DNA of 64,000 bases from contig NC_068349.1 of assembly GCF_014633365.1 (NCBI RefSeq), forward strand, positions 18,986,753 to 19,050,752, read 5' to 3'. The first letter of the stretch is position 1; each line of letters opens with the position of its first letter. The notes under the pieces were generated by a model. That model did not search any database. It was not told the DNA's origin and worked only from the letters and a program-made list of their open reading frames with translations. The stretch is from Diospyros lotus. Its lineage: Eukaryota > Streptophyta > Magnoliopsida > Ericales > Ebenaceae. Made by a program: the position numbers and the translations under genes. Positions 882 to 64,000 of the stretch are shown piece by piece.

Positions 882-2121
882 TGTTAGAACGGGAGATGCT
901 ATGGCACACACCAAGAGGGGGGGTGAATTGGATATTTAAAAACTTAAATGATAAAACTTGAAAAACTTTTTAACCCAATTGAGGTTTTAGTGATTTAAAA
1001 TATAGAACATATGAAATGACAAATGTAAAGCAAGAAGAATAAAAGACACAAAGGATTTATAGTGGTTCGGCTTAAACTAAGCCTAATCCACTACCTTAGC
1101 TCCCACTAAGGATTTTAAACCAATTCACTAAAACCTCCTACTTACACAAGTAGGCCCTCTAGCTACACAAGCTAGGAAAATAGAAACAATACAAATGAAA
1201 GAGATAAGCTAAGAGTTAACACTCTTAGTTACAAGTTATCTCACAATGAAAAACAAGGCTTAACAATAAATTTACAATGATAGAATAGCAAAGCCTTGGA
1301 GAGAAAAATAAAACAATGAAAGCCCAAACACTGTAAGCTCGAATAAAATTATTTGCAATTGCTAGATCATCTCATTTCAGTCCATTAGCCTCTCCTTGAT
1401 CATCTATGAGTTGTATATATAAGCATCCATAAAGATTGAAGAAGAAACTAGCCGTTTTTGTGACCGTTGGAGTTCAAAAACTAGCCGTTATAAAATCTGT
1501 GAAACATAATAGTCGACAGAAGAAAAGATTAGTCAACTATTTTTACAAGTAAAACTAAGAATAGTCAATAGACATATACTGATAGTCGACTATTTTTAAT
1601 ACAAAAATCCAATAGTCGACAGACATACTTGAATAGTCGACAGTTGCTGAAATGTGAAGAAATTTTTGAATTTCATGAACAAAAATAGTCGACAGATCAA
1701 AAGGCATAGTCGACTATTTTTACTCAATAGTCGACAGATGCTAAAATAGTCGACAGATGCTTAAATAGTCGACAGAACATTAAAAACAGTCGACTATTTT
1801 GAAGCATAGTCAACAGAATAATCCTGATAGTCGACTATTCTTTAGAAAAACTTGAATTTTCAAAACAACCTTATTCGATTCTTTAAAAACTCATTTTGAT
1901 TATCTTTAAAACAAGTTGAGATTATCAAAAGTATATTTTTGAAACAAATCACACTCAACCTTACTCAATATTTCTTCTATAGGTTTTCATACCTTGCTTC
2001 AAAACTCATATATTAAAAATTCATTTTCTCATTCACAAAATCCATATAGATTGATTTTCATATATTGATTTTCATATAGACATTCATCAAAACCATTTCA
2101 TTACTCAAGAGTAAAATATCA
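882..2121 (-). mobile_element. Solo LTR of a Copia/SIRE-like family (family X, copy 1), 1,240 bp
   Basis: Starts TGTTAGAACGGG and ends GTAAAATATCA. It is flanked by the 5-bp target duplication CAATA (877-881 and 2,122-2,126), and its removal rejoins the Gypsy zinc-knuckle frame. It is nearly identical over most of its length to 51,924-53,513. Read on minus, its 3' end carries CACCCCCCCTCTTGG, a signature I associate with SIRE/Maximus Copia LTR ends. That orientation also gives a TATA box (minus, near 1,414-1,424) with a GTCGAC box array just upstream at 1,511-1,835. No internal coding region is attached, so this is a recombined solo LTR. Compared with copy 2 it lacks about 350 bp near its right end. 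Confidence 0.88.
1511..1835. repeat. Helically spaced array of GTCGAC boxes in LTR U3
   Basis: Exact GTCGAC cores follow an A at 1,511, 1,583, 1,613, 1,634, 1,687, 1,708, 1,729, 1,748, 1,767, 1,788 and 1,829, with decayed versions (GTCAAC, GTCAAT) at 1,531, 1,563 and 1,808. Most neighbours are 19-21 bp apart. Two forms alternate: AATAGTCGACAGA and a palindromic type close to AAATAGTCGACTATTT. On the minus strand the array lies immediately upstream of the LTR TATA box, which fits a promoter or enhancer role; function is inferred. Confidence 0.85.
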
Positions 2122-7905: not shown

Positions 7906-10077
7906 TACAAGGTGTACCAATGTAAGGTTTTAATCCATTTTCAAAACTTTTTCGAAAAAGATGGATGAAGGCAGAGGAAACATAAACAAAATTGATCTTG
8001 TAAGACTCATTTCTCATCTCCATATGCTATACGAAACTAAACCATGCCATAAAGGGTTTAGTTAATATACCTTTGAACGCTTGAAGGTTGATGTAGAGGC
8101 TAGAATCCTCCCGGTGACAGCAACTCCTTGCTCCAAGAAACAACTCTCGAACCTTCCTTCGGTTAGATGAAACCGTCCCCCGAAAATCAAGGGGCCTAGT
8201 TAGTTCACACCCCAGTGAGATGATGAATCCCACCACTCTCTTTGTGTTAGACAAAGAGAATATGGGAGATTATGGGTTGAAATAAAATGGGTTCAAAGAA
8301 GAGAAACTCTCAAGATTGATAGTCTCACTATCAATAGCTATGAACTTCAATAGCTATAAGAGAAGCAAGAGGAATAATGGGGAAGGGAGCTAGGATGATT
8401 AGTTTTGTGCACTGAAATAGAGTGAAAAATGAGCCTAGGGTTTAGAGAAAATCTCACACAAAAGGCTAGGCAAAAAGCTCTCTCATTTTTCTATTCCATT
8501 CCTTTTATATTCAAAAACACACAAATCCTAGCTACCCAAATCCTCCAAATCGAACAAAAGACATGGTGGACAAGCTGGGGAACAAGGGGAGACTACAATG
8601 ACGCACGTCGTCCTTCCTTTCCATGTGCCCTAACTTTTCTGTTGCAAAAAACGATAAATGAACGTGCAAATTTGCAGAGGGATCGATAGAAACTGTCGAT
8701 CGTTTTCAAAAAACTATTGACAGTTTCTTTGTTATGTCAAAGGAAACTGTTGACAGTTTCCTCAAGCTGTCGATAGTTTTGGCCGCCAATTTCCAAACTT
8801 TCATATATTGCATCTAGGTTGGCTATTAATTCTTAATAGCACTTTCATTATCTCATAATGACATTTAGGCCCCAATTAACTCTTAACAGCATGCCCATCA
8901 ACACTTGACGATTACTCCTTATAAATTTGATCATTAAACTCGATCCGTTAACTCTTAACGGTAACATCATTAACTCTTAATAACGGTTTCAGCCTTAATC
9001 ATTTACTCAACCATCACACTCGGATATGTGTGTGACCTTCTAGGTTCAGTACTAAGTAGCAATCAAGAAACATCAACTCTTTGACATTGACCAAACATTT
9101 TAGTCTACAACGAGGATCTCTCAATCTCCTCGTTGTACCCTGAAAGACCATGAGTGACAACTAGCATTATGTCAGGGCGATCCTACCAGTAATAAAGTCT
9201 TACTTCAGAATAGAACCTATTTGGACTTTTGATTCTCGTGTACTATAATCCCTCCATCAATTATCATCCCGATCAAGTGAGAGTCATGGACTGATCAAAC
9301 TCACTAACTGGATGACTATGCCAAAATCAGTATGCTGAGATCGAGACGACACATCAGAACTTTTTCCTACATTGAAAAACTTTCCAATCAAGTGTACCAT
9401 GGCCTAAGGTTTCTACAATTAAGAGCACAACTGATCGCATAGGATGTTCATCTCACATCGAAGGTCGATGGATCCCATTAGCAATCACTTGCTTTCATAT
9501 GCCATTACATAGGGAGCACACAATGCATCTTCCACCTGGTAATCGGATGATTCTTTGCAACGGCAAATCCCTAGCATTGACACACAAGATAACCATGTTA
9601 CCTCCAGTTAAAGGACCAATAACATAATTGAAGACTATGACAGACCATAAATCCTTTAAGCCATGTGATCTATCACATGCGTCATATTCAATAAGTGTTC
9701 CACTAACACCTACCCACATGTATACTATATCTATCCTATGGATTACGACATGCAACTCACCATTCCTTATCATTAGCATCTCATACTAATTAAAGGTAGT
9801 ATCCCATGTGCCAGTATATACTTGACTAATTATAGTCACCTTCTAAGAAGTCTAAGGACTAGAAATTTATCATTAAGATATCTTTGTTACAAAGGTCAAT
9901 TGCCATATATTTTAACACTTAAGAATAAGACCTTTAATAGAAAATCTAAGGACTCATTCATATATAATGATTGAAGAGTTATAAATGAAGATATGACCTC
10001 AAAATATGAAAACACATTTTGTTATATATATATATATTGCAAGAATTACATCATTAGTCCCATAATTATAAATCTAG
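7906..10077 (-). mobile_element. 2.17-kb noncoding insertion in Copia pol, probably an LTR-like element
   Basis: This segment interrupts Copia pol between the protease and pre-integrase regions. The flanks share ATGCCAT (7,899-7,905 and 10,078-10,084), and deleting one copy plus the insert brings the two halves of pol together, apart from a small frameshift. It has no coding capacity. It carries CTGTCGA/GTTGAC boxes at 8,685-8,780 and, on the minus strand, a TATA-like ATATAAAAG near 8,500, the same layout as the solo LTRs elsewhere. However, I cannot find TG...CA ends beside the duplication, and 7 bp is not the usual 5 bp for LTR elements, so its class is open. Confidence 0.5.
8685..8780. repeat. 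Cluster of CTGTCGA/GTTGACAG boxes
   Basis: At least four boxes occur in about 95 bp: AAACTGTCGATCGTTT, ACTATTGACAGTTTC, GAAACTGTTGACAGTTTC (imperfect palindrome) and AGCTGTCGATAGTTTT. They resemble the GTCGAC arrays of the family X solo LTRs and lie upstream, on minus, of a TATA-like sequence. Confidence 0.6.
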
Positions 10078-10578: not shown

Positions 10579-13115
10579 TGTAACGACCCGTTAGTGGGTC
10601 CAGGTGATTTATATATTGGAATAAGATATATATTTTATTAAAGTAATGTTTTGGTGAATTATATGTGATATTTTTACTTGATGTGCAATCGAAGCGAAAA
10701 AGTCAAAGGTTTGACTTAAATGGTAGTAGGACATGCAATGGCTTAAGGTATGTGTGGAAATGTTGTATAGTGTTGATTTAATGTTTAAGCTATTATTTAA
10801 AATATGAAATTCTCATTTAAGTGTTTTGGCACCAAGGGAATTTAAGTAGTTGTGGGTGGGAATGTGTATATATATATAAGAGAGAAAGGGGTCATCTTTG
10901 CATGTAAGGGAAGAATTAAAAGGCGAAGGAAGAGGAGGAGGACCAAGGTAGGGTTTCTTCTCCTTGCTTCCTTGTGTGTGTTTGATTTTCAAAGGGATTA
11001 AGAGGTTAATGATCACTTCATCATCTTCTTCTTTCTTCCTTTATTGCTAGTTTTCTTGTTGGAAGTGTGAACTAAAAGGTTGTGGAAGAGCATATTCTCA
11101 AGTAGGATCATCAAGAAAGGCTTCTAAGGCAAGTTCTAGTTCCTTTTATCTCTCTTGTAAGCTCTAGCCTTGATGTTTGGGGATTTAAGTACAAAAATCC
11201 TATGTTTTTCTAAAAGATACTTGTGTTGAAAGGTTATGTAGAAACCTTTGTAAATCTCCCATGTTTCTTGTTTAATCTTGTTAGTCTTTCTTGGGTTTCA
11301 AAGTAGAGCTAGTATCACCTTACAATCCTAAAGGAATGGTGCTTTGGGGCTAGGGGTGGATGGTATGAGCTTGTCTCCATTTGTCATGCATTTGGTAGGT
11401 CTCGGGAGGGTTTTAAGCTACTATCAGTCGATATTTGGGGGGAAACTGTCGATTGTTTGCAGCATCTGTCGATTGTTTTTGTCAAAAGGTCGACCATTTT
11501 TGCGATGTGGTAACCTGCGCATGCTCTACTGTTTTGGGTATAACTTTCAGTAAAAAATTCCGATTCGAGATCCATTTATTGAGTTGTAAACTAGACTTGA
11601 TAAGCTTCAATTTCACATAGTATTCATACTATTTGGCTAAGTTTTTGAGTGGTTTATTCTTGATTCCAAAAAATGTCTAGATGTTTTTGAGAATAATTAT
11701 GCACTCATTGGTGAGGTGTTATGTGAATTGGGGCTTCATGATAGACATGTTTGAGTATGATAATGAGCTAGTATTGGGTCATATGGAAATTTGGGATTGG
11801 AGAGCATTTCACTTGTGTAGGTGTTAATTGGGGAGTTTCTTGGGGTTTTTGATGAGTATGTATGGAGTGGTAGATGAATGAGAGATTGGGTCATATAGTG
11901 CTATGAGTTGGGGCGTAACACTTGTAGGTATGCCCTAGTAATGTTGAAATATTTAACCTGAGAGTTGCTTATGAATTTGAGAATGGATGTGAAGGTGAAG
12001 TATACGCCATGAGTGGAGTTGTAGTTTCGGGAAGAGATATGGGGTGCGGTATGAGTTCATGTGCATGCGACGACTATGGGGGTGTATATATGGTTGACCT
12101 CCCTTCTTGGCTAGAGCATCGCAAGAATGAGGCTACTACATACTTGGCGTGTGGTATCGTTGGCCGGTGCTAGCTTGTTGGGAGTGGGTTGGGAGCGAAC
12201 CGAAAATGCTGCTATGATGAGGCCACTGCATATTTGACGTGTGGTATTATAGGTAGGTACTGGATAGCAGTGGACTGGGGAGTGGACTGAGGGCACTACT
12301 ATGATAAGGCTACTACATACTTGGTGTGTGGTATCATGGCATGTACTAGTGCCATCAAGTTGAGAGTGAGCTAAGAGCACTATTATGGTGAGGCCACTGC
12401 ATACTTGGCGTATGGTACCGTAGATGTGTGCTAACATCGCAGAATGGATGGAAATTTATGGGCCCAAAGTGGGGTGCCTTGTGGCATGAATATTATGTTA
12501 CGGTGAGATAGTGAATGTGGTGCTTATAACATTATGTGGGTTCTGGAGACTATGTGGTAGCAGGGTTACCGGATTGTACCTTGATTATGGTGGGAGCTAG
12601 ATAGTTGAGTGGACTACAATGATTTTCGTTATATCTTTCATGTGGTGCTCCCTGTTTCTATTTTGTCAGCAGTACTCTATGTTATGATCCTACCATATAT
12701 TGCCTGTTATTGCTTATTGAGTCTCCATTGTGATATATCCCATGCAACATTTTGTTGTGTTATACTTGTTGAGCCTTGCGACTCTCTCTTTACATCATTC
12801 TAGGTACATGTAAAGCGAAGGATGAGAAGAATTCTAGCGGGTTTGATCTATTAGGTTAGATGTATACAGAGCTCACCCGAACAAAAGGTCTTGCGGACGT
12901 TGTTAGTTTGTGGCTTGCTAGTGGATGTATATTTAGAATTTGGGTTTGTTGTTTCCCATTTTGGACAGGCTAACAGAATGTAAAGGACAATGCTTATTTT
13001 GTTTTGTATGGAAAAAAAGAAAAGAAAAAAGCATTGTTATTTGTTGTATGGTATGAATGATCTTGATTGAGTTGCGCTTTGTTCCCATCTTGTGTTGGAC
13101 CTCCGACTCGTTACA
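10579..13115 (+). mobile_element. Solo LTR (probably Gypsy), 2,537 bp
   Basis: Begins TGTAACGACCCG and ends GACTCGTTACA, giving an 8-bp perfect terminal inverted repeat (TGTAACGA/TCGTTACA). It is flanked by the 5-bp target duplication CTTAG (10,574-10,578 and 13,116-13,120). It sits in the Copia element between zinc knuckle and protease. The TGTAACG start and its length suggest Ty3/Gypsy, which is an inference. A TATA-like TATATATATATAAG lies near 10,868-10,880 on plus. CTGTCGATTGTTT boxes occur at about 11,425-11,500 and a four-copy minisatellite at 12,129-12,430. No internal domain is attached. Confidence 0.85.
12129..12430. repeat. Four-copy minisatellite, 84-90-bp period, inside solo LTR
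   Basis: The recognisable core GAGGC(T/C)ACT(A/G)CATA-(C/T)TTGRCGTGTGGTAT recurs with starts near 12,129, 12,219, 12,306 and 12,390. The open frame on the minus strand here (12,437-12,111) only reflects this repeat. Confidence 0.75.
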
Positions 13116-20900: not shown

Positions 20901-23900
20901 AAATAGTGATGGGATGGTTTAAGGATGGGATAGAATAGTGATGGGATTAAATAATATTGTCCCTTGTCGGGAAGAGAGGTATTACCACAAGTTATAACTA
21001 ATACTATGTTTGGTTTCTGTAATTGTGAATGAGGTATTACTTGAAGTTAATAGCCAATTTACCCATTTCCCCTATTTGCCAAACTGTTAGCGGATTGCCC
21101 ATTTACAATTAGGTGCCTGTCTACCAAGAAGAACGCCCATTTTCCATTGCCTTCAAGCTTCAATCCCAATGCCTACTTGCTTTCACACTCTCCTTGCTTC
21201 ACTACCAGTTTGAAATCCTTTAAAATGTAGTTTGGTTTTGCCAAAAAATGGATTAATTATATTTTAATCATGAGAATATATATATAAATAATTTTATATA
21301 TGGATGGAAGAGTGGATCGAAGATGGAAGCTGTCTTCTGCACTTCAACTAGCAACAGTTACAGAACTAGAAAGTGGCAACCCAGCATCAACCTGAGCAGA
21401 ATAGGAAAATCGGAGAGGGGTTCTCAGTTTCAGGGCAAAGGCAAGAGTGTTGATCACAGGGGTGCCAGTAGTTGGCAATTTGCGGAGGGAGGGAGATCGG
21501 CCAAACAAAATAGATAGACAGAGATAGAGATAGATTGATCAGTGGAGATAGGCAGCAGTCACGGGGAGCTGAGAATGACTGCAAGGCAAGGGCTTGATTC
21601 GTCAAAGAAGATGAAGAACAGCAACATAGTTGAGGGAAGGAATCTGAAATGGAAGTTGAGGGTAGAAGATGCATTTATTGGGAGAGAGAGAGGAGGTGAA
21701 CGTGGGGGGCAAAACTGTCTGAAGTGTGCAACATTTTTATTCCACTGCAGCTGGATAAATTAATACCAGGGGGTTGGGTGGGTTTATTCTATCCCACCGC
21801 AGTGGGATAATTTAATCCAAAGCTTAGATAATCCCACACCAATTTCTATACCAAATGAGGTATTGCTGCATAGGTTGTAATGCCCACCATTTAATCCGCC
21901 TACCAAACATGCCGTTTGTGGTTTAATCATAGTAGCTATAATAATATAAAGTCTCAAGTTCTGATACAAGTATGAGGATGGAGTGACTCTAAAAAGTTAT
22001 GCCAGTGATGTGGTTGTATCGATGCATATTTGTTATGTATTTGGTTTTCTGTTATAGCTGATGTGAGAGTTTTATTGGGCAACTATAAGACTATCTTTGT
22101 TTTATGGCTTAAAATGTTAGGCAGTTAAGTGCCAACATGTGCAGCATGAGTGTAGCTGAAATGAGAATGTTGTGGTGGATGTGGAACTATACAAGAAAAG
22201 GAAAAAGAAGAAACGAGATCATACATAGTGTTTGTTGAGGATATAATCACAAATTAAAAAAGATAAAGGACCAAAAAAGAAGAAAGAAGAGCTGATAAAG
22301 ATGCAGCTATCAGTTCCTAAAAATTAGAAGAAGATGAAGCCTCTTCTTATCCAAAAGAATAGGATAAAGTTTAGGAAATTTATCTCTACTTATCTGTTAT
22401 TGTATTTGTATTTTAAATTTCTAGATTTTAGGAGTTTTTCTTTATTTAAGTTTGTAATTTGTATCTTTGAGGGTGTGAAATTTAATTGTTCCAGATTCAC
22501 CCTGATTTCTTTAGTGTGTTAATCTCTAAAACTCTTAAGGTTTTTACTTTGTTCATGGTATCAGAGCCCCTGATTTCTTTAGAATGTTAATCTCTAAAAC
22601 TTCAAGGTTTTTACTTTGTTCATGGTATCCAAGCCACCGATCTGGTGACTGATTCCTTCTTTTTTTTTACTTCTCCTTCCACAACGTACCTGCAACTCGA
22701 TGACTGGTTCTTCAACCTCTAGCGAAAGTTCATCCCGTTGTCCTACAACCTCTCAGATTATGCCGTCATTCATTACACTGATGGCTTCTGATCAGCATAC
22801 CCTTCAAATCACCTAACATCTCTTCATTGGAACGAATTACCGGGAATGGTCGCAATCAATTTTATTAGTTATGAAGGGCAGAGGAAAGGTGGGATACCTT
22901 ATCGGAGAAGGCTTACAACCAGATCCAAAGGATGCTACTTATAATGCATGGGATGTGGAAATTTTCATTGCCATGTCTCGACTCATTAATTCAATGGAGC
23001 CAAAAATAGGAAGAACTTATCTATTTTATAAGACACCCAATGAGTTATGGGAAGCAGTAAAAAACCTCTATTCAGACATGGAAACCACTGCCTAGTGCTT
23101 TAAAGTTAGATCAACCATACGCACAACTCGCCAAGGTAGTCTTTCAGTTACCGAATACTATAATTTGTCATTTGGTTTGTGGCAAGAGATGGATTTATTC
23201 TATGAGGTTCGTTGGGAATGCACTAAGGATGGTGTAACTTACTCCAAGATCATAGAGAAAGAACGGGTCTTTGATTTCCTCCATGGACTAAATCCTGATT
23301 TAGATGAAGTCAAGGGGAGACTCTTAGGCTCAAAACCTTTTCCCTCTACTGGGGATGCATTTGTAGAAGTTAGGAGAGTGGAAAGTAGGAAGAAGGTGAT
23401 GCTCTTAGCATCATCCGATGCTCCTATCCAGGGGGGTTCAACCCTTTTTGTCACCAAACCAAAACAAGGAGCAAATCGTGGAGATCCTTCTAAGGAGAAG
23501 CAATGGTGCGATTGTTGCCGAGGGCCCTACCATACTCGAGAAACATGTTGGAAACTTCATGGCAAGTCTGTTAATTGGAGAGGAAAGACTCAAAAGAAGC
23601 AGCAAACTGCTTATACTACAGATATAGAAGAAGGAGAAGGTAAGTCCTTTGTTTTGATCTCGGACCAAGTGGAGATATTGCAACCGTTATTCCACCAAAC
23701 AAAGGTTTCAAAAACCTCAAATTTGGAAGAAAGGACCAATTTGACAACCACTATCTCTAAACCAGGTAATCTTCACAAATGCTTTGTATCTAAATTGATA
23801 GATGATGATTGGATTGTGGATACTGGGGCCTCAAATCACATGACCGAAGTATTACAAAAACTGATTGACTATAAACAGTGTAATAAAGGTGTCAAGGTGA

Positions 23901-26900: not shown

Positions 26901-29900
26901 ACTAGTGGAAAAATTAATCTACTTAACTCTCACACGACTGGATATTACCTATGTGGTAAGTATAGTAAGTCAGTTTATGCATGCACCCACTAATAAACAC
27001 CTTAATGTTGTCCATCATATCCTAAGATATTTGAAAGGAAGCCCTAGTAAGGGAATCTTGTTCAAGAAGAATGAAGATTGGGGAATTCAATGCTTTGTAG
27101 ATGCTGATTGGGCAGGATCATTGGAAGATAGTAAATCTACTTCAGGTTTTTGTACCAAGGTATGGGGAAACCTGGTGATATGGAGAAGTAAGAAGCAAAG
27201 CGTAGTGGCTAGAAGTAGTGCTGAGGCTGAATATAGAACCATTGCACAAGGTATATGTGAAATCATGTGGCTGGAAAAATTGATGGAAGATCTGAAAATT
27301 GAAAATTCTACTCCTACAAAGCTATACTGTGATAACAAGTCTGCTATAAGTATAGTAAATAATCCGGTTCAACATGACCGGATGAAACATGTGAGGATAG
27401 ATAAACATTTCATTAAGCAAATGATCGAAGAAGGTGATATAAATCTGGTATATATACCTACAGGTATCCAAGAAGCTGATATTCTAACTAAAGCCATGAA
27501 TAAACAAGGTTTCAAGCTAATTAGAGGCAAGTTGGGAATGATAGATATCTATTCGCCAACTTGAGGGGGAGTGTTGAGGATATAATCACAAATTAAAGAA
27601 GATAAAAGGGCTGAAAAAGAAGAAAGAAGAGCTGATAAAGATGCAGCTATCAGTTCCTAAAAATTAGAAGAAGATGAAACCTCTTCTTATCCAAAAGAAT
27701 AGGAGAAAGTTTAGGAAATTTATCTCTACTTATCTATTGTTATATTTGTATTTTAAATTCCTAAATTTTAGGAGTTTTTCTTCTATTTAAGTTTGTAATT
27801 TGTATCTTTGAGGGTGTAAAATTTAATTGTTCCAGATTCACCCTAATTTCTTTAGAGTGTTAATCTCTAAAACTCTTTAAGGTTTTTACTTTGTTCATAG
27901 TATCAGAGCCCCTGATTTCTTTAGTGTTAATCTCTAAAACTTTTTTACTTTATTCATAGTTGAGTGACACTTATTTGATAATGTAAGGGAGTCACTATTA
28001 AGATGGTTTGGATATGTGAGAAAAAGATTGGTAGAAGCACTTGTAAGGTGACGGAACAAAATGGGAGGAAATTTGTAATAAAAGAGGAAGGAGAAGACCA
28101 GAGAAAACTTGGCAGCAAACCTTTAAAAATGGCATAGAATATAATGGCCTTACAAGGGATATGGCCGTGGATAGAGGTGAATGAAGCTTTAGAATTCATG
28201 TAGAGGATCCCACTTCGTGGGATTAAGACTTGTATTTTTGTTGTTGCAGGTTCTCTTTTATATTTCATTTGATCCATTAGATAATTTCTCTTTTGACATT
28301 GTACTTTCTGAAGTTTTTTTCTTGTACTTCTTGTAATTTTGCATGTTATTTTTACGGAAGGGGCATTAGCAATGTGATTCCTAACTCAAAATTGGCTTTT
28401 TAAATCATAATAAATGAGTCTCTAATTTTAGATATCCCCAGATTTTTGGGGTACCTAAAGAATTTTGCTGTAGAAGCATTTGTCTTTTTGTATGCAGGGC
28501 ATCTTTAGAGGAGTGGGTGTGATGCACAACAACACACCAAAAGTACTAGAATTTTCATCCAATTAGGCAGAAGTAAATAGGTGGTATGAATTCAAAGTTT
28601 TGTCAACTGGTACCCATATGCGTGTATGTATGAATGCATACATTGCAGCATGCATATAAGGTTGCCAAATAAAGAACAGAAAACTGACCAGTTAAATACT
28701 GGAGATCCCCTAGCTTGGGTGGGTGAGAAGGAGGGCATGCGAGCTCAAGAAAATTTGCAAAGTTAGTTTGAGCTCGGCTTGCAGCAATTTTGTTTGTTTG
28801 CAGGCATTTCAGGTTTGGTTTATAATGTAGTGTGATTGTATGAACCAGCTTTCAGATATTTATTTGTTGTTGAAATTTAGAGCAGTCACAACACTTATAA
28901 TAAATTTGTAGGTTACTTCAGCAGGTAAGGGTCATCATATAATAATTCTATTGAAAATTTTCACATCTATTTGCTTAGCTGTAAACAAGACAACCTTGTT
29001 AGTAGATAGATGTGCCAATTAATAGGGATACATAATTCTATAACTGCAAGTTTCACGAGCTAAGATTAAGTCATGGCTGTTGGCTCATTCTTGTGTCACA
29101 AATGGGTTTATAGTAGAGCTGTCAGTTCATTAATAAATGGTTCTATGTAAGCTCAGATATAGTTCTGTTTTATTTTCCAAAGATGATGAATTTCCTTTCT
29201 AGCTCCACATATCCACAGTTTAAAAGCAAGGTTTCTTGCCCTTGGTGTTGTTTGGATGAGTGCCTGAGAAAAGGAAAAACCTTGAAAGGGCACGTCTAAT
29301 TCTACAAAACAATTTTATTTTTAGAAAATAACCAAATGCAAATATTTATTTGATAATGCTTATGAAAAAGGGGGGGAAAGTTAGTTATTAGATAACATTT
29401 TATCCTCACCATTCCTCTCTCAAAATGCCTGCCATTATAGTGTGTGTGTGTAAACTCATTCTCTGCAGTATCCTTGAGGATCATAGGAAACTTCATCCTC
29501 CTCCTCCTCTTCCTTCTCTGACTTGCCGCATTTATCTCTTCTTATCCCACTTTCTGATTTGCTTTCTTGTGCTTGATGCTTCAATTGATTCATTCACCAG
29601 GTATTTATAAGTGTCCCGATAACCCATGTTCACCACTTCGACCATTTTCACTCCATTCTCCGACCTCCTCAGTTCTCTTCACATTTAGGCAAACATCCTC
29701 ATCTGAGATCTTTTTATTTGTAGGTTCCCCGTGTCTGGATTTTTCCTGGAAGTTATCCTCTTCAATTGGTTGCTCTCCCACATCGTACCGGCTTATGGGT
29801 GTTACAACATGTGTTTCTTCAACTTTATTCCTCGTCTTGGTCCAATCAGATATATGATGGAGATAGAAATATTGAATGTTTTGGGATCACTTTTTGTGGC

Positions 29901-32900
29901 AGTAGCTGATCTAAATCTTTGATTTGTTCCCCCACTTGGGGCCAAGGGAGGGAGGGAGAAAATATAGTCAGTATATTTTGTGCTTTCAGGATAAACCATA
30001 ATATCTGCCTGTGCAAGCACTATCCATAATAGGTATCTTACATGTTATGATTTCCCATTTCGTATTTATGATGCACTTTTTTCCCCATCTGTTGTGTTGT
30101 TTTACAACCAACCTATGGTGGGGTTACTGGTTTCATATCTGAAAGGTCCAGATCACGGTGCTTACATTCTCATGCTATGACCTGAAAAGTAAATACAAAC
30201 ATATATCTACACTATGTATTCTGTTTATGATTATCCCCCTTAGCTTTCCTTTGTAGATGATTTTCATGTGAGGCATCATATGTATCAGACACATAAATTT
30301 ATATTGTCTCGTGAGTATGTTATTTCAGGAATATATGGGTTGAAATGTGATACTTCTGATATTACAAAGCATCTGGATGAGTTATCACTTAATGAGCTCC
30401 TTGTTGGCATTTACCATGGTCCTAGTTCTGAAGATAAGGGGAAGAAAGTTGGAAGTTTGAATGAAAATATTCTACAATCAGTTAGAAAGGCTTGCTCTAT
30501 TCTTCGTATACAAAAGCCCCTACAGAGCCAAAATTCTACTGAGATTGATAACAGTTGCAACCTGAAAGTTTCCATGTGCCCAGAGAGCTCTGATCCTTCC
30601 ATGGCAAGCAGAAATGATGGTGATAAAGGAGATAACTGTCCTGCCGATCCTTCTTCTTTTGACAAGGTTAGTTTTAAACATTTAAGAGAATTATCTTAAA
30701 TAGTGATCAGTTACACCTGAAGGAGCCTCTACAAATGTTATAATGGTGCATGAGTTGTTACATTTCTACAATCTAAGACTGGTCTTGATTACTGCAGTCA
30801 GCAACTTGATGCATCATGTGAAGAATCAATGAAACTCTGTTATGTAGCCTTTCATTTTTACAGCTTCTGTTTAGACATTGTACAATCGCTATCTTCAAGT
30901 GTGTATTATTGGGGCCTTTTACCTTATTATCCAGTGGCTGGCACTGTCAGCTAGTGGTGCTTAATGGCCTAAGACTGCTTAAAACCTGGCCTCTGTCTTT
31001 ATTTGCATTTAGTTATTTCATTGACTTAAATCCTATGTTATATAGACTAGGGTGGACAGTTGGATTGTGGAATGTGTCTTTAACTATTTGCATTCCATAT
31101 GCCTAATTCTCAAGTCCAAGAACTCTTAAAATCATTGCTTTGTTGCATAATTAGCTTGACTACTGTTCATGTATATCACTGCATACAACATGTTGGATGC
31201 ATCCCATGCCCTTACCCAAGCACCGAGTGCTTTCTACAAGTACTTCACAGATTCAGAGAAGTGCACATGGGATTGAAAACCTTAGATGGCATAGTAAGTT
31301 TGGACTTTGGTACAGTACAGTCTGAAAAGTTCTATTTTCTTTCTAATCCAACTAATCTGTCAAAATCACTTAACCTTATTGAAAAATTGCATAAGTTTTT
31401 TGTTAGCTTTATTAGGTTACAACTTCAGTTATTTTCTTAAAGATGTGAAACACGGGAAGTTATGCTGTTGTTTAGGCATTCCTCAAGTGCTGCTAAGAAT
31501 TATTTTAATTTAGTGATAACATCTGCCTTATTTTGTGGTATTGAATACTGATATTATCCCTCTCTATTTGATATTAAAGGTTCAAGATTGTCTTAGCCCA
31601 ACCAAAACAACTTCCAACATTCTAGATTTCCCATTTTGTCAACCTAAAGATTTACTGGACCGCCTTGGGCTTCCTCCGCCGAAGGATTTGGATTCTTTGC
31701 TTCTTGATGTCACCAAGCCTGTTGTGCCTTTGAAGAACAATTCAGATTCACGTGCCAAGCAGATATCTCATCGGGCTAGCTTACCATCTTTTCCTTGGTC
31801 ACATAACTCCGGAGGGCATTGCAAATCTAATGCCGATGCAATTAAAATATCTGCAAGCAGGGGCATATGTCATGGTAGATGGGTAAAAATGGGGCACACT
31901 ACTATGTCTGTGGAAGGCAGGACTGGTTTCCTCACAGACTTAGACTCACTCACTTATGATGACAGTCTGGTTCCTTTGGGAAGTCTGAAATGTGTGCCCT
32001 TGGGAAATGAAATTACCCCATCTGCATCTGTTGGCTTTCCTTGGTTTAAATCAGGTTCATCATCATCTGCAACATGCTCCAGAGCTTCCCAGCTTCCTCC
32101 AGGTTCTTGATATAGCTTTGTCTGAATTTATTTCTTCTACTTCTCATCTGAAGCAGGCAATAACTTGAACATTCTTTTTTCATTTGCATGTGCAGAATTT
32201 TGTAGCAGTCTGAACAATGAAGGAGATGGTAAGATGTGCAGTTCCTTTGGTGCTATTGCTTTACTTTTGAAGTTATAACCTGACACATCTTAGAAGAATA
32301 AAATAAAGGAATAAACTTGTATCTGTCAAGTATGTCTATTAGTATCATAACATGATTTTACCGTGTGTATGCCTTCGGATTGCATTTATGAATATGGAAA
32401 CACAAATAGCAGCAAAAAGGAAAAGGTGAAAGAATGGTTTTGCAAATGCTATCACCTACTCAAAAGATTTAAGTGATGTCTTCTTTGGGGGATATGGCTC
32501 ATCTCCATAGGTTGGCGGGCTGTGTACACTGAAGCCTGGTTCCAATTTCTCCAGTAGTCTCACTAGCATGTGTGCTTATGATGCATCATTGTCAATTGCT
32601 GGAATAGTCAACTATAGTAGTAGATGAGAATGCATCATGATAGCAGTTCTACTTTGTTGGTCCACTACTTGTGGTATGGTCAATGTTTTCTGAGATTGGA
32701 AAATGCATCCTCATGTTAGAGCTAGCTGAGTGTCTTGTGTCACCCGGACCCTTTCAAAATTGTGTTTGTATCTCCATGATGGATGCTTAATAGTAGGTAT
32801 AATATGCGTGTTGGGGTAATGTGTTTGATATGGCTAGTTGGATTCTTTGAATGTTTTCCGTGGTTGATTTGGGGTAACGTTAAGAGCTTGTCATAAAACC

Positions 32901-45530: not shown

Positions 45531-46239
45531 GAAAAAATAAAACTTGTGAAAGCTATTAGCCCAAGTAATAAGGCAACCCAAGAGGGGACTGAATTAAGTT
45601 TTTGAAATTTTTTGATTTTCTTTCAAATAGTATTGTAAATTATATATGTAGCAAGTAAAATATGAAAACAGAAATCTCAAGTACAAACGATAAAGAATTC
45701 AATCTTGAGAAAGTAGTGAAATGAGTACACAAAATATTGCAAGAGTAAAGTATGTAATAAAGATGAATAAAAATGAAGAAAGCAAACAAATAAAACAATA
45801 GTATTTATCATGGTTTGACAACATGTCTACATCCATTATCTTGACTCATCCCCAAGGATTTTTCAATCCATTATCGTAGTGCTCTTTGAAAAGACAAGTA
45901 CTATCTTCTATATAGTCATTTTTCAATGATCTTGTGCTTTTTACACAGACTCAAACACTAACCTTCTTTGTTCTTTTTCACAAGCTCAAGCACTAACCTA
46001 TTTACAATACTTTTTTAAAGGGCTGAAGCAATAACCTAGATTCAATGCCTTTTCAAACCTGAAGCAGTAACCTTATAAGATAAAAAATGAAATATAAATG
46101 TGGAGAAAACTCTCAACACTAATGGCCCTCATAAAACAAGCTCAATACAAATAGTGAACACTCTAGGTTTTCTCACAAAGAAAAAAAAATGAATAAGATT
46201 GAAGAACTTTCTCTGTGGATGAGAAGGAGGAAAATCACT

Positions 46240-47099: not shown

Positions 47100-48110
47100 A
47101 ATAGTTGAGAAAAATCTACTCTTAGTCAAGTACAAATTAAGTATAGTAATCGAGTAAAGACATAACAATGACTTAAGAGCTCTTTTGAATCAAAGCATAT
47201 TAGTCTAGTCTCTCTCCTTATTATTAGTCGATTACACTTTGAGTTGCTCTCTATTGTTATATAGAAAGTCAACTAATATATTGAATTAGCTAAATATTTT
47301 TCTAATGGTTCAATAAGAGTCCAAACTTAGGAATCGAATAATTCATATTAATCAAGTACAAAATAAAGAGTTTTTTGTATCTTGATAGGAAGTCGACTGC
47401 TTACGGTAGTGGTCGAGTAACACCTTGAGATCACAAAATAAAAGTCAAGTACATTTTAACTAACTCTCTATTCTTTAGTAGGAGGTCGACTCCTTTCAAA
47501 TTGTAGTCGAGTAATGTAAGACAAAAGCTTGATTCTTCCTATCAAATACTCAATTAATTTAATTAAGGAGTCGAGTAGAAAATATCTAAGTAAAACATTC
47601 AATATCAACACAAACTAACTCGAGTATTGCTAAGCATTACTCAAATAACTTTTTCTTGATACTTTGTATCCTTGATTTGTTAATGTAATACTCAAGTAAT
47701 GAACTATAATACTTCAGTAATGTCCTCAAATGAAGGCCAAGCTTGATTTTTGTAACATCCCGCATCGAGCGATAGTAAGTACCGGAACAACTTACCTTGA
47801 TGGGCATACGTGAACTTTCCAGGGGTCACCCATCCTTGAGCTTCCCCAGCTCAAACACGCTTAATCCAGGAGTTATTTACTTACATTCAGCCCAAAAGGT
47901 ATCCAGCTGGTGTTGTTTCATTTTTTACATTATTCTCGATATATACTACTCTTTTCTGGGCTCTTGGGGTATTACAATTTTCATGGATAATAATTGATTA
48001 ACATATGATTCATTATTTGATACTCAATTAACACTTTTTTCAAATTTTTAATCCTTAAGATTCAAAGAGATTACTCGAGTAATGATATCTGATACTCAAG
48101 TAATGAGTTA
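47100..48110. repeat. Dispersed AGTCGAGTA / ACTCGAGTAATG boxes
   Basis: More than ten boxes of the type GTCGAGTAA, GTCGACT, ACTCGAGTA and decayed ACTCAAGTAAT occur over 1 kb, interrupted by the Cassandra LTR at 47,751-47,976. They occupy the same relative place as the GTCGAC arrays in family X LTRs, with looser spacing. Confidence 0.6.
47751..47976 (-). mobile_element. Cassandra TRIM solo LTR with 5S-rRNA-like promoter, 226 bp
   Basis: Minus-strand ends TGTAATACCCCAAG ... CGGGATGTTACA, flanked by the exact target duplication ATTTT (47,746-47,750 and 47,977-47,981). On minus it contains TTAAGCGTGTTTGAGC and GGATGGGTGACCCCTGG, which match the A-box and C-box parts of the plant 5S rRNA internal promoter. 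This is the hallmark of Cassandra terminal-repeat elements. No second LTR or internal domain is present. The 5S-like body is shortened and altered (GGGGAAGCTCAAG between the boxes). Confidence 0.9.
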
Positions 48111-51923: not shown

Positions 51924-53513
51924 TGTTAGAACGGGAGATGCTATGGCACACACCAAGAGGGGGGGTGAATTGGTTATTTTAAAAAAAAAACTTTTTAATA
52001 CAGGTTGAAGTTTTAATGATTTAAAACGTGAAGCATATAAAATGACAAATGTGAATCAAGTGAGGAATTAAGGAATGCTTGGAAAGATAAAGATGATTTA
52101 AAGAACACAAGCACACAAGAACACCAAGATTTATAGTGGTTCGGCTTAACCCAAGCCTAATCCACTACTTTAGCTCCTTACTAAGGATTTTTCAAACCAT
52201 CCACTAAAACCCCCTACTTAAACCAAGTAGGTCCTCTAGTCCGAGACTAGGAATTACAAAATCTCCCACTCAAATTGGCCCTCTAGCTATACAAGCTAGG
52301 AAAACAAGAAATATATAGTTGGAGAGAATCTAAGAGATGAATCTCTTAGTTACAATGTCTCTCAAAAATGATACAAGACTTAAATGAATGTAAACAAATT
52401 AAGATCACAGCCTTGAAGAGAGAAAATTGAAGCACAGTGAATGTAAATAGAAACGAGTGTAAAATGTAAGCTCAATTCAATTCATTCTCGTCCATTAGCC
52501 TTCTCTTGATCATCTATGACATGTATATATAAGTGTCCCACGAAGTTGAAGAGAAATATAGGCGTTTGGAGCCGTTGGGATTTGAAAAAATAGCCGTTGG
52601 AGCTTTCTGCAAAAAGAAATAGTCGACAGAAGAAATATATAGTTGACTATTTTTACAACTAAAGCAAGAAATAGTCGACAGACAAAACGAATAGTCGACT
52701 ATTTTATAACACAAAATTTCAATAGTCGACAGACACATTCCAATAGTCGACAGATGCTGAGATATGAAGAAATTTTTGAATTTCATGAACAAAAATAGTC
52801 GACAGATCAGAAGGCATAGTCGACTATTTTTACTCGATAGTCGACAGATGCTTAAATAGTCGACAGAACATCAAAAATAGTCGACTATTTTGAAGCATAG
52901 TCAACAGAATGATCCTGATAGTCGACTATTCTATAGAAAAACTTGAATTTCAATACATCCTTATTCGATTCTTTAAAAACTCATTTTGATTATCTTTAAA
53001 GCAAGTTGAGATTATCAAAAGTATGATTTGAAACAAATTATTCTTAACAAATCAATCTTTCATCCATACTCAATATTTCTTCTATAAGTTTTCATATCTT
53101 GCTTCAAAACTTATATACTAAAAATTCATTTTCTCATTCATATAATCCACATAGTAGAAATTGATTTTCATATAGTCATTTATCAAAACCATTCATTACC
53201 AAGAGATATTAGATATCAAAATACTAGGAGATAGTTTTCTAAAATGAACACTTTCTAAAATGAACACATTTTCAAAAACATGTTTTAGTTGGTCTTTTGC
53301 CTTAGAATTATTTTGACCAACAATTTCAAGGAGATTCTTTTTAGATCTTAAAACTTGTTTATGCAAATCTCCAAATAATATAAAAGATCATAGATCATTT
53401 TAACAAAGCACTTTGAAATTGATTTTTGTTTTCAAACCATATGCTTTGATTGAGAAAAAAAAATACATTTGAAATTTTTCATCATCAAAACTAAACACAA
53501 GAGTAAAATATCA
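51924..53513 (-). mobile_element. Solo LTR, family X copy 2, 1,590 bp
   Basis: Ends TGTTAGAACGGG ... GTAAAATATCA with exact target duplication AAATG (51,919-51,923 and 53,514-53,518). Nearly identical to 882-2,121 over the shared parts, plus about 350 bp (about 53,190-53,490) missing from that copy. On minus, a TATA box lies near 52,520-52,533, with the GTCGAC array directly upstream. Confidence 0.92.
52621..52926. repeat. Helically spaced GTCGAC array, copy 2
   Basis: Exact GTCGAC cores follow an A at 52,621, 52,673, 52,693, 52,723, 52,744, 52,797, 52,818, 52,839, 52,858, 52,879 and 52,920, with variants GTTGAC (52,641) and GTCAAC (52,899). From 52,797 onward successive steps are 21, 21, 19, 21, 20 and 21 bp. 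Confidence 0.88.
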
Positions 53514-56438: not shown

Positions 56439-57640
56439 TTAAATACCTGCATTGATTTGGGCATGCACTACATTATAAGAGGCATTGTTTTGTAAATTAA
56501 TTTTGAAAAGACCATCAGACAATGTACCGTTCCTAACAAGCTCAGATTTATAAAAGAAATCAAATGAGTTTTTCATAAAATTAAAGGAATATCCAAAAGG
56601 TACGAGTCTGGAAACTAAAATTAAATTCCTAGAGAAATTAGGAATATAAAAAGTCTTTTCTAAATCTAAAACAAAGCCAAAATGTAAAATCAGCCTGCAT
56701 GTCCCAATTGCATCCACATGTGAATGCATCTTGTTACCTGAATAGATGCTTTGTTCACTTTCCACTGGTTTCCTCTAGTTTAGAAAACCCTACAAGGTAT
56801 TTGCAATATGGATTGTAAAACCAGAATCAATCTACCATGTGTTATGAAAAATATCAATCATATTAGATTCATAACATACAACACAGTTAGATTACCTTTC
56901 TTCTCAAGCCATGACTTAAATTTGAGGCAATCCTTCTTCAGGTGTCCTTTCTTTTTGCAAAAGAAGCACTTGAATTCCTTCTTTATTTTAGGCTGGATGG
57001 GTATTTTACCTTTTCCTTTACGCCTTGCTTGAGTAGACTTATTCTTTCCTCGAGTGGCCATATATGCACTCTCTCCCATTTCTATAATCAGCCTCCCTTC
57101 TTCTTGAACACACATGGTCAATAATCCATTAATAGACCATTTATTTTTATGTGTGTTATAAGAAATTTTAAAGGGACCATACTGTTGTAGGAGAGAATTT
57201 AAAATGAAATGCACAAGGAAAGAATCAGACATCGTAACCTCCAGGGATTTCAATTGAGCTGCAATGTCCCTCATCTTCATGATGTGCTCACGCACACCTT
57301 TAATACCGGTGAGCCTCATTGATGATAACTTCATCATTAAGGTGCTGGCAAGTGCCTTATCTGAAGACTCAAACTGTTCATCAATAGCCTTCAGCAATTC
57401 GTTGACTATCTTGCATTCTGGAATTGAACCACGAATACTAGCAGAAATCTTAGTTCGAATGAACATCATACTGAGGCGATTAGATCGCTCCCATCGCTCA
57501 TGCTCAGCAATCAGAGCCTTAGTGCTAGTAGGATTGACTGCAGGTGGTTCAGATTTTTGGATTGCATAGTCGAAGTCCATGCACCCTAATTATAGAAGAA
57601 TCCTGTCCTTCCACTCCTTATAGTTATCACCATTCAAATT
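56439..57640 (-). pseudogene. Copia gag and protease (second element)
   Basis: Gag is open from 57,580 to 56,858 (MDFDYAIQKSEPP, WERSNRLSMMFIRTKIS, ALASTLMMKLSSMRL, VREHIMKMRDIAAQLKSLE, YNTHKNKWSINGLLTMC) and ends in a zinc knuckle CFFCKKKGHLKKDC. Further N-terminal residues (VPNLNGDNYKEWKDRI) lie upstream in frame, then a stop. Protease follows with IDSG (about 56,830) and open frame 56,765-56,439. A Trp codon just before IDSG is a stop. Confidence 0.88.
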
Positions 57641-57646
57641 AGGAAC

Positions 57647-59395
57647 TGTTAGATTTGAATAGCAATGGCACCAACACCAAGAAGTGGGTGAATTGGGTTG
57701 TTTTAAAAAGTTGATTGAACTTGAAAATCCTTTTGATGAAAAATGAGATTTTAGTGTAGGTGAGGATTAATGAAATGTTTGGGACAATAAATGAAACAAA
57801 AAGCACAAGCAAATAAGAGACACAACAATATATAGTAGTTCGACTTAAACCAAGCCTAATCCACTACCTTAACTCCTCACTAAGGATTTTTTAATCAATC
57901 CACTAAAAACCTCTTATCTCTCTGGATAAGCCCTCTGACAACAAGCTAGGAAATTACAATCTCTTGCTTAGAAAAACAAGCCCTCTAGCAACAAACTAGG
58001 TATTTCAATCCCTTACTTCAATAAACAAATCATCAAGCACAACAAGCTAGGAATCAAAGTCCTCCTACAAGCAATGTAGGCCCTCTAGCAAAACAAAATA
58101 GTAAAATTACAAAGAGATACAAGATAGGAGAAGATTTGAGAAACAATATTCTCAGTTACAAATTCTTTAAAAAATAAAGACAAGGCTTGATAATGAATTT
58201 AACAAAATGAATACAAAGCCTTGAAAAGAGAACAAATTTACCAATGAAGCACAACAATGATCTTAGCACTTGGGAGCTTGTAATGTAATCTCTTAGTTGG
58301 TTTGAATCACCCATTTGACTTGTATTTATAGTGCCTTGAGAGCCCATTCACGAATCTTGTCGTTGGTAGTGGAAAAGCCATTTTGGGAGAGTGGAAAAAC
58401 TAGTTGTTACATGTTGTCTGCGACAAACTGGTCAACAGGTGGATCAAGGCGGTTGGCAGCTTCTTAAGATCGATCGACAGGTCGCAATGCAGAGACGGTC
58501 GACAGCAAACAACAAAGAGCATATCTAACAACCGGTCGCAACAAGATTAGAACCGGTCGATAGGTCCATGTAACTAGTTGACAGGTTGGAACAAACAGTC
58601 GACATAAATATATTAGAATTACTTGACGATACCTTCCATTTACTTTAATACATAAATGTAAATAAGAAAGTACCCCCCATTTGGATTCAATAAAAATATC
58701 TAGAAAATCAAAATCCAGAACAATAAAAAAGTAGAATTTGGGTTTTAGTACAAATTCAGGATTTAGCAATTTTACCATCTCCAAAATACATACTTTATAT
58801 TTCTTGAAAAATTCATTAAAAATAATTTTAACACCAATGAATGTTAGCTATTAAAAAATCGGGATATAGTTTTCTAAAAAGAAAACATTTTCTTATATGT
58901 CTCCTTATAAAGTGCTAACCTTCCAGACTTAGAAAAATATTAAAACTCTATCAAAAGGAGTTTCGAAACATGATGCATGAACTAAAGGATTTTTTAGACA
59001 TTTGAATTTCGGGCCAAAACCTTTCATGCATGTTTCAAAATATGAAAAACTTATTTCGAAATATAAGATTAACATAAATAATTTTTCATACTTTTCAACA
59101 AACACATTTATGTTCTAGTTGGTCTTTTGTCTTAGAACAATTTTAGCTCTATGTTAACCAACGACTTCAAAGCTATTTTGAAAATCATTTTAGGAGATTC
59201 TTTTAAAACTAAATACTTGACTTTGCAAATCTCCATATGAATATGAATGAATTTAATTTGGTTTTCTTTTGAACAAAATAGACCTTGATATTGAAATTGA
59301 TATATGTTGAAAACCATAACCTTGACTCATGACTTAGGGATTAAGCTAATATATGTTTTTCATCATCAAAACTAATATATAAAAGTCAAACAACA
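57647..59395 (-). mobile_element. Solo LTR related to family X, 1,749 bp
   Basis: Ends TGTTAGATTTGAATAG ... AAAGTCAAACAACA with exact target duplication GGAAC (57,642-57,646 and 59,396-59,400). Its removal rejoins the Copia gag reading frame (…SDMKCDV then PNLNGDNYKEW). It shares the layout of family X (ACACCAAGAAGTGGGTGAATTGG near the left end, TAGTTCGACTTAAACCAAGCC, a minus-strand TATA near 58,320-58,332) but is clearly diverged. GGTCGACAG-type boxes at 58,430-58,615 replace the GTCGAC array. Confidence 0.88.
58430..58615. repeat. Cluster of GGTCRACAG-type boxes
   Basis: Includes GGTCAACAGG, GATCGACAGGTCG, CGGTCGACAGC, CCGGTCGCAAC, CCGGTCGATAGG, AGTTGACAGG and CAGTCGACAT. It lies just upstream (minus) of the LTR TATA-like site, as in the related LTRs. 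Confidence 0.65.
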
Positions 59396-63164: not shown

Positions 63165-64000
63165 TATTTAAAATTTATTATTAATTTTACAATAATTAGT
63201 ACATATTATTTCAAAACAATTGAAAGATTTAAATTATTAATGCAAATTACAAAATGTAAATTATTAATGCAATAAGTATTAAACGCAAATCATTAATGCA
63301 AGTTTTGGGGGAAAATTTTATTACTACTTATTATTTCAAAATAATTGAAAGATTTAAATTATTAATGCAAATTACAAAATACAAATTATTAATGCAATCA
63401 GTATTAATTGTAAATCATTAATGCAAGTTTTGGAGGGAAATTTCTTTTTTCAAGACTATCTTACTTTTATATATATAAAGATGCAAATTACAAAATATAA
63501 ATTATTAATACAATAAGTACTAAACGCAAATCATTAATTTTGGGAAAAATTTTATTACTACTTATTATTTCAAAACAATTGAAAATTTTAAATTATTAGT
63601 GCAAATTACAAAATACAAATTATTAATGCAATAAATATTAATTGTAAATCATTAATATAAGTTTCAGAGAGAAATTTCTTTTTTGAAGACTATCCTACTT
63701 TTATATATATAAATATGCAAATTACAAAATGTAAATTATTAATACAATAAGTACTAAATGAAAATCATTAATTTGGAGGAAAATTTTATTATTGCTTATT
63801 ATTTCAAAGCAATTGAAAATTTTAAATTATTAATGCAATCAGTATTAATTGTAAATCATTAATGCAAGTTTTGGGGGGAAATTTCTTTTTTCAAGACTAT
63901 CCTACTTTTATATATATAAAGATGCAAATTACAAAATGTAAATTATTAATACAATAAGGATTAAATGCAAATCATTAATGTAAGTTTTGGGGGAAAATTT
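63165..64000. repeat. AT-rich tandem array, about 207-241-bp unit, runs off right edge
   Basis: TGCAAATTACAAAAT recurs as unit starts at about 63,241, 63,482, 63,716 and 63,923 (steps 241, 234, 207). Each unit holds a GGGGAAAATTT or GAGGGAAATTT-type segment and, in most, TATCCTACTTTTATATATA. Within units, TTAAATTATTAATGCAA appears again, so each unit is itself a degenerate dimer. Confidence 0.8.

Follow-up and report, generated by a model that had tools for sequence, protein, structure and literature searches.

Results

Solo LTRs and box arrays

The window, i.e., the whole 64-kb stretch of DNA that was analyzed, contains three related solo LTRs, denoted A, B and C. The three LTRs, their TATA boxes and the C-rich runs of A and B are located as follows.

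882..2121, sense strand minus: solo LTR A, probably of Sirevirus type, 1240 bp long; TG...CA ends, TSD CAATA on both sides
51924..53513, minus strand: solo LTR B, 1590 bp, of the same family as A by alignment to A; TSD AAATG
57647..59395, minus strand: solo LTR C, 1749 bp, a diverged relative by R/U5 similarity to A and B; TSD GGAAC
1414..1421, minus strand: TATA box of LTR A, TATATATA, 91 bp beyond the last box in the sense direction
52524..52531, minus strand: TATA box of LTR B, 91 bp beyond the last box
58323..58330, minus strand: TATA box of LTR C, CTATAAATA, 101 bp past the last box
917..923, minus strand: C7 run of LTR A, 35 bp from the 3' end
51959..51965, minus strand: C7 run of LTR B, 35 bp from the 3' end

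All three have TG...CA ends, an identical 5-bp TSD on both sides and no internal region; for A, this agrees with the preliminary description, which had called it a solo LTR. By our reading, B lies within the 3' part of another copia element, and C is inserted in the gag region of that same element, beside a Retrotran_gag_2 match (56861-57589); four pieces of the host element match Retrotran_gag_2, SH3_retrovirus and RVT_2 (two pieces). That B and C might be the 3' and 5' LTRs, respectively, of the intervening copia element was rejected, because each has its own TSD and the two are too different. Elsewhere in the window, direct repeats at 22233-22626 and 27572-27960 (93% identical) flank copia-like reading frames, an arrangement that suggests a full-length copia element of fairly recent origin. 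The reading frame 31520-32107 has a single named match among 12, to Camellia sinensis (66% identity), which identifies the DNA as that of a plant, and an AT-rich complex tandem array with periods of about 116-234 bp occupies the window end (63195-64000).

The TATA box recurs at nearly the same distance past the array in all three related LTRs, and array C shares little sequence with arrays A and B. Further TATA-like places are present, one in A (451 bp past the last box) and several in B and C; the place chosen is shared by the three LTRs, beside the array and in similar surroundings. A minus-strand TATA box at a like distance in each of the three LTRs most likely places the arrays in U3, upstream of the promoter. 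The earlier claim that the minus-strand end of array A lies just upstream of the TATA box is correct, and the earlier assignment of the array to U3 is supported. At a place similar to that of the C7 runs, LTR C has CACCCAC.

The arrays of the three LTRs are the following.

1512..1835 (324 bp), minus strand: array A, 14 boxes, 11 exact GTCGAC and three in which the CpG has decayed
52622..52926, minus strand: array B, 13 boxes, 11 exact and two decayed, with box types in the order 1212111211212
58431..58603, minus strand: array C, six boxes with at most one mismatch from GTCGAC, two of them exact

GTCGAC occurs 30 times in the window, compared to 1.98 occurrences expected from shuffles, and none of 100 shuffles reached 30. 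Under a first-order Markov model of LTR A, the mean is 0.06 GTCGAC per LTR and the maximum 1 in 2000 simulations, in line with the previous estimate that a 6-bp word should be found here well under once by chance. In array A, the exact boxes start at 1512, 1585, 1615, 1636, 1688, 1709, 1730, 1749, 1768, 1789 and 1830, and the decayed boxes are GTCAAC at 1532 and 1809 and GTCAAT at 1564. The number of boxes given in the preliminary description (11 exact and three decayed in about 325 bp) is therefore confirmed; the boxes it listed exist, but its coordinates were one base low. Successive steps are 20, 32, 21, 30, 21, 52, 21, 21, 19, 19, 21, 20 and 21 bp, so that 10 of the 13 fall within the 19-21 bp range that had been described as predominant.

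Two types of boxes can be distinguished on the plus strand: type 1, TAGTCGACAG, and type 2, TAGTCGACTAT, which is a longer palindrome. Their order in array A is 12121112111212 (nine of type 1 and five of type 2). The type-1 boxes (9/14 in A and 8/13 in B), in which palindromy is limited to the 6-bp core, are placed the same way round throughout both arrays. Array B is a second copy of array A that was absent from the preliminary description; its steps (20, 32, 20, 31, 21, 52, 21, 21, 19, 21, 20 and 21 bp) are nearly those of A. A minus-strand reading frame extends over most of B; a search returned 15 candidates but, at E ≤ 10, no protein, so a coding role is not supported.

Spacing and helical phase

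Boxes of this kind are also found in a fourth LTR, E, in an element of a different family, D, and in an LTR-like region, F. LTR E is degraded, with approximate boundaries at about 45.55-48.2 kb and apparent other insertions inside, and bears boxes of CTCGAG and GTCGAG types. It is linked to C by one 41-bp match (45831-45871, 80%), and a degenerate LTR-end motif lies near 45.58 kb; judging by these similarities, E is probably related to A-C. Its array is as follows.

47124..48101, minus strand: array E, 12 boxes of types AGTCGACT, AGTCGAGT and ACTCGAGT, together with CpG-decayed forms

The density of E-type boxes is 9.6 per kb in E versus 0.15 per kb outside the four arrays. Element D (10579-13115, 2537 bp) has TGTAAC...GTTACA ends and TSD CTTAG, and we take it to be gypsy-like, judging by its start; it has four GTCGA boxes at 11429-11491, with steps of 21, 20 and 21 bp. 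Region F (8670-8800) has CTATCGACAG-type boxes with steps of about 20, 33, 21 and 13 bp, located about 180 bp upstream of a minus-strand TATAAAAGG; no TSD was found in the ranges tried, and its kinship to A-C is not clear.

Helical phase was compared to a null model of uniform box placement with a minimum gap. At a period of 10.4 bp, adjacent steps had a mean cosine of 0.91 in array B and of 0.87 in array A, with p ≤ 5e-5 for both. The absolute box positions of B fit a period of 10.3 bp (R 0.94) and those of A one of 10.25 bp (R 0.83); periods of 10.25-10.35 bp fit better than 10.5 bp, at which R fell to 0.55 in B and 0.23 in A. It should be noted that A and B represent one ancestral array, two of the long steps of which resemble one duplicated unit; thus, together they amount to about one independent case. 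For array E, the mean cosine was 0.70 (p 0.004-0.009) with 8 of the 12 boxes, and p was 0.0005-0.03, depending on the period, with 10 of the 12; a separate pair of boxes 21 bp apart was omitted from both calculations, and the box definition for E was set after some of its steps had been viewed. The four boxes of D gave p 0.015-0.04. Array C was not significantly phased, with p 0.14-0.28 for seven boxes, the seventh of which (GTCGCA at about 58535) was added by eye, and 0.44 for five boxes. Outside arrays A and B, the window contains 42 GTCGA/TCGAC sites that form 13 pairs no more than 64 bp apart, at distances of 20 (two pairs), 21 (three), 25, 41 (two), 42, 48, 58, 62 and 64 bp. These distances are not independent of the phase tests, because six of the 13 come from D and all but one of the remainder from C or E.

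Taken together, helical phasing is supported in A/B, which share one array, and in E but not in C, and duplication explains much of it. The preliminary description had placed the palindromes on one face of the helix. The near-helical steps of A/B and E stand; the claim itself was overstated, because A and B share an ancestral array, much of the regularity can be traced to tandem duplication, the period that fits is 10.25-10.35 bp rather than 10.5 bp, and C is not significantly phased.

Conservation of the boxes and tandem duplication

Regular steps can also result from copying. Under this explanation (slippage or unequal exchange), the array is the by-product of duplication of a box unit of about 20.5 bp and of a two-box unit of 41 to 52 bp, with no helix-phased binding, and the steps reflect copying rather than function. 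Several observations are in accord with this: the two box types recur in order; array A contains a 19-bp tandem repeat (1726-1776); alignment shows that one 19-bp unit of A is missing from B; and the 52-bp pair unit (1512-1564-1615) seems to be duplicated itself, so that two long steps are not independent. The absence of phasing in C also fits. Conversely, the long junctions of 30-32 and 52 bp correspond to about three and five helical turns and are not multiples of the unit, and E, which has other boxes, is phased at p of about 0.005.

The comparison between A and B bears on the same question. The 11-bp boxes differ at 5/142 positions and the array spacers at 23/172 (Fisher p 0.0024), with one decayed box of A placed at 1565 instead of 1564 in these mismatch counts and in the CpG counts below; the bare 6-bp cores differ at 4/78 positions and R/U5 at 68/559. 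Within B, the pairwise identity between units at nine box positions is 0.85-1.00, whereas the flanks show 0.19-0.49, near the chance level of 0.29; the boxes were kept while the spacers diverged, and this, like the smaller difference of boxes than of spacers between A and B, speaks against the duplication account. Within A, the same nine positions have an identity of 0.64-0.86, lower in part due to the box set at 1565 for 1564. However, the stretch to the right of the array (1841-2121) has 17/277 mismatches and is conserved nearly to the level of the boxes, in agreement with the duplication account; given this, and the 4/78 differences in the cores, constraint on the boxes has modest evidence and is not unique to them. 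We consider duplication as a full explanation unlikely, though far from negligible.

The boxes vary little despite containing CpG, which is expected to decay faster. Between A and B, 10 box CpGs were kept in both and one was lost in one, compared to six kept and three lost outside the boxes in gap-free columns. The observed/expected CpG ratio inside arrays A, B and C is 1.32, 1.50 and 1.09, respectively, versus 0.34, 0.38 and 0.28 in the rest of the LTR, and the GC content of the three clusters is 0.32, 0.34 and 0.49.

Predicted RNA folding

Palindromes could also act as RNA, such that U3 transcripts form hairpins that serve as Dicer substrates or in packaging/dimerisation, the DNA spacing being incidental. 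The predicted sense RNA does fold far better than shuffles in A (z -10.0) and B (z -9.4), and palindrome clusters of maize Sireviruses are reported to be small-RNA hotspots (Bousios 2016, as cited in PMC5311732 and PMC10760457). When the boxes were kept and the spacers shuffled (100 draws), the mean energy was -93.2 kcal/mol (sd 4.6, lowest -109.5), compared to -101.0 kcal/mol for the actual sequence; this near-equality indicates that the palindromes alone produce the fold. Among 110 base pairs predicted for A, 77 are the same in B, six have a one-sided change, none is compensatory, eight are broken and 19 fall in gaps; 54 of the 95 pairs predicted for B itself are shared. Folding is not unusual in C (z -0.15 and -1.56), D (-0.90) or E (-0.43) and is moderate in F (-2.96). 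In addition, the RNA reading offers no reason for steps of helical turns. The strong predicted fold of A/B RNA most plausibly follows from the palindromes, and a primary role as RNA appears quite improbable.

Discussion

Proposed function

We consider it somewhat more probable than not that arrays A-C are a cis-regulatory box cluster in U3 of a probable Sirevirus-type Ty1/copia LTR, with putative sites for host proteins that activate LTR transcription. The palindromic, CpG-containing boxes, the cluster of which ends some 90 bp before the TATA box, would be repeated sites for one or several host DNA-binding proteins, and the bound proteins would activate transcription of the LTR, making the array a U3 enhancer. 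Spacing near two helical turns would bring many of the sites to the same side of the helix, so that several bound molecules might act together. One candidate, as a lead only, is the DREB/CBF type of AP2/ERF proteins: a motif table (CRTDREHVCBF2, PMC4222965) gives GTCGAC as the site preferred by HvCBF2, an AP2 protein. That boxes of GTCGA type spaced by two or three turns recur in LTRs of different families of this genome (A/B, E and the dissimilar D and F) could mean that a single factor of host or element origin recognizes helix-phased arrays and has led separate retroelement families to build them, which we regard as rather improbable. The decayed form GTTGAC resembles the WRKY W-box, which is likewise a lead only.

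In a further alternative, the boxes are docking sites of a protein that the retroelement lineage itself encodes, a transactivator or anti-silencing factor similar to VANC; box and protein would then change in concert, which is offered as the reason why the boxes of A/B, C and E differ. According to PMC5735166, VANC21 is located at dense arrays of a 9-base motif, all in the same orientation, and VANC target repeats vary between related elements; similarly, type-1 boxes in A/B all point one way and related LTRs bear different boxes. However, the VANCs of PMC5735166 belong to VANDAL transposons, and the window, in which A-C are solo LTRs, shows no internal region of the family and hence no candidate protein. 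Moreover, D and F look different from A-C and also bear GTCGA-type boxes, so a host factor fits better than an element-encoded one. We consider the lineage-encoded binder very improbable.

A search for GTCGAC in LTR retrotransposons found nothing relevant in the literature, no LTR box array was apparent from the titles and abstract beginnings of the matches listed for AGTCGACT with repeat or genome, and the C-rich LTR-end string had no literature match. Among viral sequences, four contigs have three TAGTCGAC boxes with gaps of 6-20 bp; they were judged unrelated by their composition and box contexts (one contig, L001, on its first 1300 bases), and the LTR-end motif had no match among viral contigs. 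In L001 (IMG/VR, positions 59-847, locus GC 0.56), 21 dispersed GTCGAC, often as TAGTCGACTA, occur within about 790 bp in an unrelated context.

If spacing in helical turns is the rule, DNA-bound proteins, rather than RNA hairpins, would shape such arrays. The Sirevirus boxes were published in 2010, with no common factor in the sections considered and no spacing rule in a term search of the main text (PMC2829016), and a family with a regular array would be a good bait for finding the binding factor.

Comparison with known systems

The dense, same-orientation, family-specific arrays of a short motif resemble the VANC target repeats of VANDAL elements; that system differs in its element-encoded binder, in its motif, YAGTATTAY, and in having no adjoining LTR TATA box (as far as described in PMC5735166). 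Short cis-elements in LTRs are also known to drive transcription: a 13-bp element does so in Tto1, according to a title cited in PMC10794571, and Tnt1 elements have undergone U3 diversification (PMC1838419). The likeness of the present arrays to Tnt1/Tto1-type copia elements consists of short LTR cis-elements of this kind. The tandem U3 motifs of the Tnt1/Tto1 type have other sequences, were tested experimentally, and are present in fewer copies in shorter LTRs. The maize Sireviruses Ji and Opie (Bousios 2016, as cited in PMC5311732 and PMC10760457) are similar in having palindromes in the LTR regulatory region and strong predicted RNA structure; their box, quoted in PMC10760457 as CACCGGACNNNGTCCGGTG, is different.

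The closest likeness is to the "repeated motif" (RM) boxes of Sirevirus copia LTRs, which, according to the main text of PMC2829016, are palindromic, lie in U3 and are followed by the TATA box. The statement in the preliminary description that no such array was known to have been described is therefore not upheld. RM boxes are present in 13 elements, with at least eight per element and 3-14 in the 3' LTR; 12 of the 13 published RMs have a CGG-CCG core, the exception being Tnd-1, the box of which, ACAATCGATTGT, has a TCGA core, and the Vitis box CGGTCGACCG contains GTCGAC (PMC2829016). The boxes begin 200-400 bp after the LTR start and span 300-500 bp; the cluster forms a CpG island that ends about 45 bp past a box, the TATA box follows on average 37 bp after the island, near mid-LTR, and a polyC-rich integrase signal of about 19 bp is located at an average distance of 21 bp from the 3' end of the LTR. 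Other Sirevirus hallmarks are the CA/ATTGG junction with PBS TATCAGAGC, multiple PPTs and Sirevirus gag-pol. The RM boxes have mainly stress-related matches with no common binding factor, and a term search of the main text brought up nothing on how the boxes are spaced (PMC2829016).

The present arrays share with RM boxes the palindromic CpG-containing box in high copy number (14 in A, 13 in B and 6-7, diverged, in C), its probable location in U3 with the TATA box after it, and CpG richness relative to the rest of the LTR. The TATA boxes lie at 57, 62 and 61% of LTR length in A, B and C, i.e., near mid-LTR, and the C7 run of A and B resembles the polyC-rich signal as it is described. In contrast, the A/B boxes, which read TAGTCGAC, have no CGG-CCG core (two boxes of C read CGGTCGA), two box types alternate, the clusters are GC-poor for a CpG island, and the arrays of B and C start later. 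In LTR coordinates, the arrays span 287-610 bp in A, 588-892 in B and 793-965 in C; thus, A fits the published start and length, B the length only and C neither. With PBS, PPT and pol of this family outside the window, Sirevirus membership rests on the LTR. Given that the number of boxes, the place of the TATA box and the relative richness in CpG fit, that the core is absent from A/B and that the start varies, we regard these as probable, not proven, Sirevirus LTRs with an array of the RM kind. Palindromic boxes in LTRs are already known from Sireviruses; the interest of the present array lies in its regular spacing, which resembles helical turns.
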